64,000 nt of DNA from positions 1 to 64,000 of the forward strand of contig CACHRP010000005.1 in the NCBI GenBank assembly GCA_902582315.1. Direction: 5' to 3'. The position numbers were made by a program, and so were the translations under genes. Under the pieces are notes generated by a model that made no database searches, was not told where the DNA came from, and saw only the letters and a list, made by a program, of their open reading frames with translations. Each line of letters opens with the position of its first letter. Within the stretch, counting starts at the first letter, position 1. Positions 18,243-21,385 of this stretch are shown piece after piece. Source of the stretch: an uncultured Pelagibacteraceae bacterium (GTDB taxonomy: Bacteria; Pseudomonadota; Alphaproteobacteria; Pelagibacterales; Pelagibacteraceae).

Positions 18243-18565
18243 CATATTTAGTTAATGATAAGTGTATTAAGTGCAAACTTACAGATTGTGTAGATGTTTG
18301 TCCTGTTGACTGTTTTTATGAGGGAAAAAATATGCTTGTAATTAAACCTGATGAGTGTATAGATTGTGGCGTTTGTGAACCTGAGTGTCCCGTTGATGCA
18401 ATAGTTCCCGACACTGACGAAGGTGTAGAAAAATGGTTAGAGATAAATACAAAATATTCAGAAATTTGGCCGAACATAAATAAAAAGAAGGATCCACCTA
18501 CGGATCATAAAAAATTTGAAAATGAAGAAAATAAATTTGAAAAGTATTTTAAAGAAAACCTTTAA
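18239..18565 (+). CDS. fdxA: 7Fe ferredoxin (3Fe-4S / 4Fe-4S), FdxA type
   Basis: This 108-residue ferredoxin begins with [21 protein letters not shown] and continues with [16 protein letters not shown], closely matching the Azotobacter ferredoxin I arrangement of one 3Fe-4S and one 4Fe-4S cluster. The C-terminal tail is polar. It is a cytoplasmic electron carrier; its partners are unknown. It starts by ATGA overlap with the TerB-like gene. Its 3' 44 nt are also the start of the CarD gene in another frame. Confidence 0.95.
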
Positions 18566-19391
18566 AAATACAAAACCTGTAAAGAAAAATAAAATCAAAA
18601 AAGCAAAGAAAATAAAAAAAAAAATTATTAAAAAAGTATTAAAAAATCCTAAAATTAAAAAAGAGAAAATAAAAAAAACTCCAATTAAAAAAGTAACAGA
18701 AAAAACTTCAAATACAAATCTTAGGATATTAAAACAGAATGAACAAAAACCAGAAATTAAAAAAATTAAAAAACAAGAGTCTGAAAAAAAAGAATTTAAA
18801 CCTAAAGATTATATTGTTTATCCAAAGCATGGAGTTGGACAAATATTATCGATAAATAATAAGACAATTGGAGGAATAGAGGTTCAATGCTATGACATAA
18901 AATTTGAGAAAGATAAAGCTGTGGGTCTTCTTCCGATAAATAAACAGTCTCACCTGAGACCTTTATCAACAGTCAATCAAGTAAATAAATCAATTTCAAT
19001 ATTAAAAGGAAAACCAAAAATAAAAAGATCAATGTGGAGTAGACGAGCTCAAGAGTATGAACAAAAAATCACATCTGGTAAAATTTATGATTTGGCAGAA
19101 GTAGTTCGTGACTTAAACAAAGGGGATGATTTAATGGTTGATCAATCATATAGTGAACGGCAATTGTTTGAAAAGGCCTATGATAGAATTCTTTCCGAAT
19201 TTCAAATTGTATTAAATCTCTCATATGAAGATATTCAAAAAAAATTAAATAAAGCATTAAAGAGGAATTTAGAGAACCAATCACAAACAACTCCTCAACC
19301 AACTAAACAAATCGAAAATAATACAGATAGTGAGCCTGATGTACCAGCAGAAGATGATCCTGTAGCTGGGATAGAAGAAAATCAAGAGTAA
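18522..19391 (+). CDS. CarD family transcriptional regulator with long lysine-rich N-terminus
   Basis: The core is a CarD/RNA-polymerase-interacting domain (about residues 93-165) beginning [17 protein letters not shown], followed by the helical DNA-contacting half with [13 protein letters not shown] and [16 protein letters not shown]. CarD stabilises open promoter complexes. I chose the ATG at 18522 over the TTG at 18516 used by the ORF track; no other Met occurs before the core, so the start must lie here, 44 nt inside fdxA. The first about 90 residues are extremely Lys-rich and low complexity, and the tail is acidic. Caulobacter-type CarD lacks such an extension as far as I recall. Confidence 0.88.
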
Positions 19392-19395
19392 AAAA

Positions 19396-19432
19396 AAAAC
19401 GCTTCCCACACAAAAGTTATGAGAAGCGTTTT
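19396..19432. terminator. Bidirectional hairpin terminator between carD and the tiny basic gene
   Basis: A 10-bp perfect stem AAAACGCTTC / GAAGCGTTTT has a 17-nt loop. On the minus strand the stem runs into ten T residues, giving a strong intrinsic terminator for the 21-aa gene. On the plus strand only four T follow, within the stem, giving a weaker end for carD. Confidence 0.85.
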
Positions 19433-19446
19433 AATTCAAGAAAAAA

Positions 19447-19512
19447 CTATCTTCTTTTTTTTCTTCTTTTTTTAGCTTTTTTCTTTTTAGCTTTTTTTCT
19501 TCTTTTAGCCAT
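19447..19512 (-). CDS. Tiny Arg/Lys-rich basic protein (21 aa)
   Basis: The frame encodes MAKRRKKAKKKKAKKRRKKRR then TAG: 18 of 21 residues are Lys or Arg. It is too short for the ORF track, but the context supports a real gene. The Shine-Dalgarno AAGGGAG lies 6 nt before the ATG, a promoter with consensus -35 TTGACA lies upstream, and a hairpin terminator follows 14 nt after the stop. Such a peptide must bind nucleic acid or another polyanion; comparison with histone H1-like tails or ribosome-associated peptides is inference. Alternatively the roughly 160-nt transcript could act as an RNA. Confidence 0.72.
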   Translation of the reverse strand: MAKRRKKAKKKKAKKRRKKRR

Positions 19513-19533
19513 CTTTAGCTCCCTTATTGTTAT

Positions 19534-19551
19534 ACGAATCATTTGATTCGT
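19534..19551. promoter_or_regulatory. Perfect dyad at the 5' end of the tiny basic gene transcript
   Basis: ACGAATCA-TT-TGATTCGT is an exact 8-bp inverted repeat with a 2-nt centre. It sits about 4 to 21 nt after the predicted start of transcription and 21 nt before the ATG. It could be a repressor operator or an mRNA 5' hairpin. No known regulator consensus is recognised. Confidence 0.55.
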
Positions 19552-19561
19552 TATTAATTAC

Positions 19562-19590
19562 AATTTATTTTTTTAATTAAGTTATGTCAA
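19562..19590 (-). promoter_or_regulatory. Sigma-70-type promoter of the tiny basic gene
   Basis: On the minus strand TTGACA (19590-19585) is a perfect -35, followed by a 17-nt spacer and TAAATT (19567-19562) as a 4/6 match -10. Transcription would start near 19555, giving a leader of about 43 nt. Confidence 0.55.
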
Positions 19591-19699: not shown

Positions 19700-21385
19700 T
19701 TAATTTATTTTATAAAGGTTTTCTAAATTTTTTTTATAATTTTCTATGATAACTTTTCTTTTTAATTTTAAAGTTGGAGTTAACATTCTATTTTCAATTG
19801 TAAACTCTTCATAAATAATTAAAAACTTTTTAATTTTCTCAATTAAAGATAAGTTTTTATTTAAATTTTCAACAAATTTTTTAATTTCTTCTTTGTTTGC
19901 ATTCTTTTCGGCAATAATTAAGGCTACAAGATAATTTTTTTTATCACCATAAACAAAACTTTGTTTAATATTTTCATTTAAACAGAGTAAATTTTCAATT
20001 TTTGTTGGTGAAATATTATCTCCTCCTAAATTAACAATTAATTCTTTTTTTCTATCTGTAATTTTTAGATTCCCCACTCTGTTTATTTCACCTATGTCTC
20101 CAGTATATAACCATCCGTCTTTAATTATTTCATCAGTCTCTTTTTGTTTATTCCAATATCCAAGCATTACATTTTCTCCCTTGATCAATATTTCACCATC
20201 CTCGGCAATTTTGACAGAATTTGTTCTAAAAGGAGGACCTACTGTTTCAACTTGAATTTGGTCTGGAATATTACAACTAACAACTGGTGAAGCTTCTGTT
20301 AGTCCATAACCTTGAAGAGTCGGAAGCCCAATAGAGTTTAAAAATTCACCAATTTTTTGGTCGAGCGCACCACCTCCTGATACAAAAGCTTGGAGGTTTC
20401 CACCAAACTGTTTTTTTACTTTTTTTCTGACTAACGCATCGCAGATAAAATCTATCAAAATTTCATAATAATTAAGTTTAATTTTTTTCAGTTTTTTTGT
20501 TCCAAGGGTAATGGTAAAATCTATAAGCTTTTTTTTAAAGCCTCTCTGCTTACTAAAATTTGTATTAATTTTATTAAATAAATTTTGGTAGAATCTTGGG
20601 ACTGCTGTCATTATTGTTGGTTTTGCTTCAGACATATTAGTAAGCAATTTTTCCAAACTCTCTGCATAAAATATTTTAGCCCCAATTAATATTTGTACAA
20701 ACTGAACTGTATGCTCATAAGAATGAGACAATGGAAGCCAAGTAAGAAATACAGGGTTTTTTTTTTTGATTAAAGGTAAAAGTAAATCATAAGCACCTTC
20801 ACAGTTAGCTAAAATTCCACCATGACTTAAAATAACACCTTTAGGGTTTCCAGAAGTTCCTGATGTATAAATTATGCAGGCTGGCATATTCCTTTTTAAA
20901 TTACTATTTATTATTTTATCATCCAAAGTTTCATTAAAAATATCGTTAATCAATAAACTTTTTACGTCTATTTTTTCAAAAGAAATTATTTTAATTTCAT
21001 CGTAATTAATAAAATTTTTAATTTTTTTGAATTGAGAATTATTAGAAACAATTATTAAAGTTGGTTTACAATCTTCTAAAATATATTTATAGTCATTTTC
21101 TGAATAGGTTGTAAATATTGGTACAGATATTCCACCTGCATTCATAATTGAGATATCAGAAATCAACCAATTTGGATTATTTTCTGAAATAATTAAACAC
21201 CTATCACCAGAGCTTATTAATGTTTTTAATTTATTCGAAAGCTTAAGAATATTCTCAGATACATCTTTCCAACTATAAATTGTTTTTTCAGATTTCAATG
21301 AATTTAAAAAAGGTTTAGAATTATCTACTTCTTCTAGTTTTTTAAAAAATAACTCAACAAGACTATTTATTTTCGATACTTCCAT
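19700..21385 (-). CDS. AMP-dependent acyl-CoA synthetase (long-chain fatty acid-CoA ligase type)
   Basis: This 561-residue adenylate-forming enzyme activates a carboxylic acid, probably a fatty acid, to its CoA thioester. The P-loop-like signature IIYTSGTSGNPKGV is near residue 172. Further motifs are the acyl-binding LQGYGLTEASPVVS, the hinge region WLYTGDIGEI and the C-terminal RKKELIVNLGGDNISP. Length is slightly short for FadD but within the family. The start codon is only 4 nt from the 3' CCA of tRNA-Leu on the same strand, so the mRNA may be released by tRNA processing with almost no leader. Confidence 0.9.
   Translation of the reverse strand: MEVSKINSLVELFFKKLEEVDNSKPFLNSLKSEKTIYSWKDVSENILKLSNKLKTLISSGDRCLIISENNPNWLISDISIMNAGGISVPIFTTYSENDYKYILEDCKPTLIIVSNNSQFKKIKNFINYDEIKIISFEKIDVKSLLINDIFNETLDDKIINSNLKRNMPACIIYTSGTSGNPKGVILSHGGILANCEGAYDLLLPLIKKKNPVFLTWLPLSHSYEHTVQFVQILIGAKIFYAESLEKLLTNMSEAKPTIMTAVPRFYQNLFNKINTNFSKQRGFKKKLIDFTITLGTKKLKKIKLNYYEILIDFICDALVRKKVKKQFGGNLQAFVSGGGALDQKIGEFLNSIGLPTLQGYGLTEASPVVSCNIPDQIQVETVGPPFRTNSVKIAEDGEILIKGENVMLGYWNKQKETDEIIKDGWLYTGDIGEINRVGNLKITDRKKELIVNLGGDNISPTKIENLLCLNENIKQSFVYGDKKNYLVALIIAEKNANKEEIKKFVENLNKNLSLIEKIKKFLIIYEEFTIENRMLTPTLKLKRKVIIENYKKNLENLYKIN

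Follow-up and report, generated by a model that had tools for sequence, protein, structure and literature searches.

A conserved SAR11 gene for a 21-residue lysine/arginine-rich peptide and the predicted pairing of its translation start with the orphan RNA rhtB

The present analysis shows that positions 19447-19590 of a 64,000-nucleotide stretch of DNA from an uncultured member of the Pelagibacteraceae (the window) make up a transcription unit of one gene, which encodes a Lys/Arg/Ala peptide of 21 residues (the KR gene and KR peptide), and that the loop of rhtB RNA (Rfam RF01814) is a perfect complement of bases -11 to +7 of the KR mRNA (GGGAGCUAAAGAUGGCUA). We consider it likely that the unit is the gene of a short H1-like polycation, and that rhtB would pair over its Shine-Dalgarno sequence and start codon and thereby repress its translation.

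The minus-strand translation of the 21 codons gives 17 Lys or Arg residues, three Ala, and the initial Met. The length given in a preliminary description of this DNA is thus correct, while its count of 18 Lys/Arg residues is one too high and its term "Arg/Lys-only" does not apply. The acyl-CoA synthetase gene upstream is on the same strand as the KR gene, with the KR gene's own promoter between the two, and carD reaches its stop codon at 19391 on the opposite strand. A leader peptide or upstream ORF would be expected to precede a regulated gene of the same strand, whereas the terminator and the convergent carD gene are what lies 3' of the KR gene. It is worth mentioning here that the N-terminus of the CarD-family protein is extended by a lysine-rich stretch (window 18516-18770, plus strand), also present in the relatives read, such that the adjoining genes both encode H1-tail-like basic stretches. 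The coordinates are collected in Table 1.

Table 1. Coordinates of the KR gene, its signals, its neighbors, and rhtB (window positions unless a contig is named)
Feature	Position	Strand	Remarks
KR gene ORF (MAKRRKKAKKKKAKKRRKKRR)	19447..19512	-	21 codons + stop; ATG at 19512, stop codon ends 19447
18-mer GGGAGCTAAAGATGGCTA: Shine-Dalgarno, start codon, second codon	19506..19523	-	Perfect complement of rhtB loop
5' transcript hairpin ACGAATC-loop-GATTCGT	19534..19551	-	Hairpin in 180/181 leaders, loops 3-8 nt
-10 element TAAATT of KR gene	19562..19567	-	17 nt from -35; 17-nt spacing in 184/184
-35 element TTGACA of KR gene	19585..19590	-	TTGACAT in 184/184 genus sequences
Intrinsic terminator, bidirectional, common to KR gene and carD	19396..19432	-	Kept in 182/184
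CarD-family gene, convergent	18516..19391	+	Pfam CarD_TRCF_RID + CarD_C; 18516 is the most upstream start possible; translation may truly begin further downstream
AMP-binding acyl-CoA synthetase, upstream of KR gene	19700..21385	-	KR gene promoter lies between this gene and the KR gene
rhtB RNA	G000:C4:20703-20785	+	Outside the window, on a different contig; 76 bits vs cut-off 55

The comparison with relatives establishes the KR gene as a real, widely conserved protein gene in SAR11, an abundant ocean bacterium with a streamlined genome. A DNA search of relatives gave highly significant matches to the locus in 47 genomes of Pelagibacter (coded g1), the genus of the window, whose own genome is among them; pattern searches widened the set beyond these 47 DNA-similarity loci, and the orthologues adjoin carD throughout the genus. 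The 99 distinct g1 ORFs have 20-35 codons, encode 51 peptides, and differ in length by whole codons only. The preliminary description had held that a frame disrupted in close relatives would speak against the gene; no such disruption is seen among these 99 ORFs, for which an intact frame was a search criterion, and the 47 loci found by DNA similarity likewise show the KR frame wherever the stretch is complete. Close pairs of ORFs exhibit 348 synonymous and 105 nonsynonymous differences (77% synonymous), compared to 19% synonymous expected for random single changes. Since the pairs are not independent and third-position A/G transitions favor synonymous change, we regard this excess as a strong tendency and not as a formal test. 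The synonymous-site comparison that had been proposed to separate protein from RNA function thus favors the protein, and the suggestion that the transcript itself acts as a regulatory RNA is not supported, as selection on the ORF is at the amino-acid level.

The ends of the peptides recur, with M[AP]KRRKKA at the N-terminus and an Arg cluster at the C-terminus. Other genomic DNA matches to the lysine codons of the KR gene fall on low-complexity sequences, among them the Lys-rich tail of a FecR-like protein, and are unrelated to the gene; L109:639-2027, for instance, encodes a 462-aa protein with a FecR-like region and a long lysine-rich tail, whose codons cause spurious matches of this kind. 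All Rfam matches inside the KR region are under the cut-off and fall on the A-rich stretch and the terminator.

The locus had been called a complete miniature gene, and its promoter, 5' hairpin, ribosome-binding site, synonymous-biased frame, and terminator are indeed all conserved. The -35 and -10 elements with their 17-nt spacing and the Shine-Dalgarno sequence AAGGGAG 6 nt before the ATG are read on the minus strand just as had been reported. By chance alone, about two promoter matches of this grade would turn up in such a region, so that in a single genome the match proves nothing; the weight comes from the 184 distinct genus sequences, all of which have TTGACAT exactly 17 nt from a TAnnnn hexamer. 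As these sequences were chosen by the start motif, they are evidence for the promoter and the terminator but not for the motif itself. The hairpin and T run noted after the stop codon are also present (19432-19396, followed by the T's), with the correction that the terminator is bidirectional and serves carD as well. The 161-nt KR region folds 5.2 standard deviations below its shuffles.

The inverted repeat at the 5' end of the transcript had been described as a perfect 18-bp dyad; the dyad is there, but its arms of 8 nt each flank two central bases that do not pair, so that it is not a perfect 18-bp palindrome. Among the 181 leaders scanned, G-U pairs occur in the stem along with some GCGAATC/GATTCGC double changes. 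The scan accepted 6-bp stems, which A+T-rich DNA can supply by chance, while the stems found are mostly of 7-9 bp and of a single recurring sequence. We have also considered a DNA operator at this position and rejected it, since the dyad motif occurs only once in the genome, the loop length varies between 3 and 8 nt, and G-U pairs are found, features that fit an RNA hairpin better. The element is thus likelier to be a protective RNA stem. GANTC, which the CcrM methylase recognizes, is found in each of its arms (as GAATC and GATTC).

At the equivalent place beside carD, a sister family (f2) has a 76-89-aa H1-like protein with AAPKKK repeats, suggesting that the KR peptide is probably a miniaturized H1-like polycation. 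Elsewhere, the carD-anchored ORFs encode peptides of 34-58 aa (g7), 36-38 aa (g5), 31 aa (g6), and 21-24 aa (g8 and g9). The 21-residue form is thus one of the shortest in a length series of H1-like polycations. The composition is H1-like both in f2 (AAPKKK repeats) and in the window's genus (KKAKKKAKK). The upstream neighbor in f2 differs from that in the window's genus, and the homology therefore rests on the carD side and on composition. Neither the short nor the long forms match any Pfam or NCBIfam profile, a search in which low-complexity queries have little power, and no convincing KR-rich ORF was seen beside carD among 28 loci of other alphaproteobacterial families. From its composition, we infer that the KR peptide, which is presumably disordered, binds or condenses DNA or RNA. 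The nucleic-acid-binding peptide proposed previously is accordingly retained as the likeliest reading of the product, now on the basis of the f2 protein in the same place. A role as the sole nucleoid protein is ruled out by the three HU/IHF-family genes of the genome.

The 2009 description of the RNA partner presents a bulged hairpin to which no function was assigned (PMC2704228). No target was proposed in that work, and no later work on rhtB was found in the literature searched. The RNA considered here is a member by model score, whereas the original description is of an orphan (PMC2704228). Its loop (UAGCCAUCUUUAGCUCCC) is an 18-nt perfect complement of the KR mRNA, from the Shine-Dalgarno sequence into the third codon. 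The genome has exactly two copies of the 14-mer GGGAGCTAAAGATG, one at the KR locus and one, inverted, in the rhtB loop (C4:20737-20750). The calculated duplex of the loop with the KR mRNA has an energy of -35.3 kcal/mol, whereas 1840 other start regions average -9.2 kcal/mol and reach -28.6 kcal/mol at the lowest. Against this, the predicted fold puts four weak inner pairs inside the rhtB loop, which have to be opened for pairing. The KR locus itself is below the RF01814 cut-off; the 18-mer that it shares with rhtB gives it ~26-31 bits on the antisense strand. The ribosome-binding motif has a second site, which could be read as the start of a gene beginning MAKKDY; this gene was rejected, because the site is the rhtB hairpin in reverse reading. 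The reader behind the preliminary description could not have seen that an existing small RNA is antisense to the ribosome-binding site. The complementarity accounts for the 18 nearly frozen bases of the KR leader, and the predicted rhtB-KR mRNA pairing is well supported.

In 167 g1 leaders, positions -12 to +3 are conserved at 99-100% except for the covarying -1, and most of -24 to -17 at 40-76%; these leaders were chosen by part of the start motif, which inflates conservation, and the plain DNA-similarity loci show the same pattern. For the covariation at -1, 399 g1 genomes were searched for start motifs in which the AUG is preceded by a base other than G. Base -1 is A instead of G in 16 of the 399, and 13 of these carry the matching change in the rhtB loop; in the other three, the partner is absent from the assembly even with one mismatch allowed. 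All genomes with A at -1 in which both KR mRNA and rhtB are assembled therefore covary (13/13). On the tree of the neighboring acyl-CoA synthetase, the change takes 4-6 steps, and the rhtB state agrees in every genome with both partners (39/39); that of G188, assumed in the count, was confirmed afterwards. The independent contrasts number three on supported branches and five on the best tree; they all point one way, although a sign test on so few falls short of significance. The same rhtB-KR match is found in G106, where the KR peptide has 29 aa.

Two observations count against the proposed pairing. The change from G to C at +4 in the MPK lineage (61 of 167 distinct leaders) has no compensation in rhtB, and rare TTAACC loops of rhtB are uncompensated as well. 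We take this to mean that the constrained core is ~14-15 nt, from the Shine-Dalgarno sequence to the AUG.

In the order as a whole, rhtB scores above the cut-off in 109/197 Pelagibacterales genomes, all of them g1, and is thus confined to the genus in which the KR 18-mer is fixed. About eight g1 genomes of this order-wide sample are without rhtB above the cut-off, perhaps owing to assembly gaps. Genera without rhtB keep the KR ORF behind different ribosome-binding sequences, and no rhtB counterpart was seen at the equivalent place in the upstream regions examined in g6-g9. It thus seems that the KR gene is older than its putative regulator or that rhtB was lost in the other genera.

The rhtB gene lies at a separate locus with its own predicted promoter. 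An extended -10 stands 6-9 nt before the rhtB stem on the Rfam strand in 73 of 82 loci and on the other strand in 0 of 82. This bias suggests that the loop is most likely transcribed as the strand antisense to the KR mRNA. Some 25 nt before the extended -10, an element resembling TTAATGCA recurs, which may belong to the promoter or be the site of a regulator. A close poly-U follows rhtB in 21 of the 82 loci, and in 41 a LysE-type start (ATGYTYCCC) is found within 30 nt after the hairpin. Roughly half of the loci (L264, L382, L262, and others) therefore have the hairpin just 5' of a LysE/RhtB-type exporter start, while in the window's genome a poly-U and no LysE start follows. In L383-L388 (g8 and g9), the exporter adjoins a DUF2805-like gene without an rhtB hairpin between them, indicating that rhtB was gained in g1 or lost outside it.

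In the proposed mechanism, the KR mRNA would begin with the stem-loop, and the rhtB hairpin loop would pair with 18 nt of it (-11 to +7). The duplex would cover the Shine-Dalgarno sequence and the AUG, keeping the ribosome off, and KR translation would fall when rhtB is made. Blocked initiation is the simplest outcome of a duplex at this position, and we infer that such a duplex forms in the cell and is repressive. It is doubtful, although conceivable, that rhtB acts as an antisense switch dedicated to a single target, a miniature histone, and at the same time as an exporter leader in about half of the loci, coupling amino-acid export to the synthesis of a Lys/Arg polycation.

The same exporter starts, and the genomic context of rhtB already noted in 2009 (PMC2704228), would also suit an action in the reverse direction, in which rhtB is mainly the 5' leader of the LysE/RhtB-type exporter and the KR mRNA is its regulator or sponge, tying amino-acid export to the synthesis of a Lys/Arg-rich peptide. 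We find this rather unlikely, as the duplex sits on the Shine-Dalgarno sequence and AUG of the KR mRNA and not on the exporter start, and the window's genome has a poly-U and no LysE start after rhtB. It is improbable that the 18-mer is instead a DNA or RNA site at which one protein binds in two places. Joint change at the two loci would be expected here too if the protein shifted its preference; however, the site coincides exactly with the Shine-Dalgarno sequence and AUG in the KR transcript and is an inverted hairpin loop in rhtB, has no other exact copy in the genome, and is not palindromic.

Concerning the product, the very short, all-basic composition resembles that of mini ribosomal proteins, and this, together with the recurring Arg-rich C-terminus, argues for a ribosome-associated mini-protein or for a peptide that binds RNA rather than DNA. 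The profile search, a weak test at 21 aa, gave no family at E<=1, mini ribosomal proteins included. The length ranges from 20 to 58 aa in the family and up to 89 aa in the sister family with its H1-like repeats, which is unlike a ribosomal protein and makes this assignment unlikely compared to the H1-like polycation. The ORF is A-rich and of low complexity, as might be expected of an untranslated sequence in a region that is no more than a noncoding RNA or an extension of the carD terminator. This reading is extremely improbable in view of the synonymous excess and the whole-codon length differences, the fixed Shine-Dalgarno sequence and AUG, and the retention of the ORF in genera without rhtB.

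Among the closest known systems is IhtA of Chlamydia, which was shown experimentally to repress the H1-like protein HctA (Hc1), with a loop occluding the AUG (PMC3469542, PMC4355289). Both cases have a trans-encoded RNA, a hairpin loop over the start codon, and a small, highly basic, H1-like target; the rhtB loop is complementary to the KR translation start over 18 nt, with the compensatory change at -1 (13/13). The differences are that IhtA pairs over 6-7 nt around the AUG, without the Shine-Dalgarno sequence, and has three stem-loops, whereas the rhtB pairing spans 18 nt including the Shine-Dalgarno sequence and is a prediction. Since the bacteria and the sequences are unrelated, rhtB-KR would work like IhtA-HctA but is not a member of that system. 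Hc2 of Chlamydia, BpH1 of Bordetella, and AlgP of Pseudomonas, of ~165-350 residues, share the Lys/Ala(/Pro)-rich repeats and the variation in length by repeat number with the frame kept (PMC2848022, PMC9239181). The Pelagibacter form differs from these in its 20-35 residues, its Arg clusters, and in being the basic tail alone. According to the main text of a GC-IGR survey of strain HIMB5, which mentions neither carD nor rhtB, this SAR11 genome has at least three short ORFs without a known function (PMC6429828); the KR gene could be among those ORFs.

With the KR mRNA, an Rfam RNA that has been an orphan since 2009 gains a concrete candidate target. The KR protein is too short for gene callers, the ORF track included, and tryptic proteomics is expected to shred the peptide. 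The findings suggest that streamlined SAR11 keeps trans-acting antisense control of a histone-like peptide, convergent with IhtA-HctA of Chlamydia.
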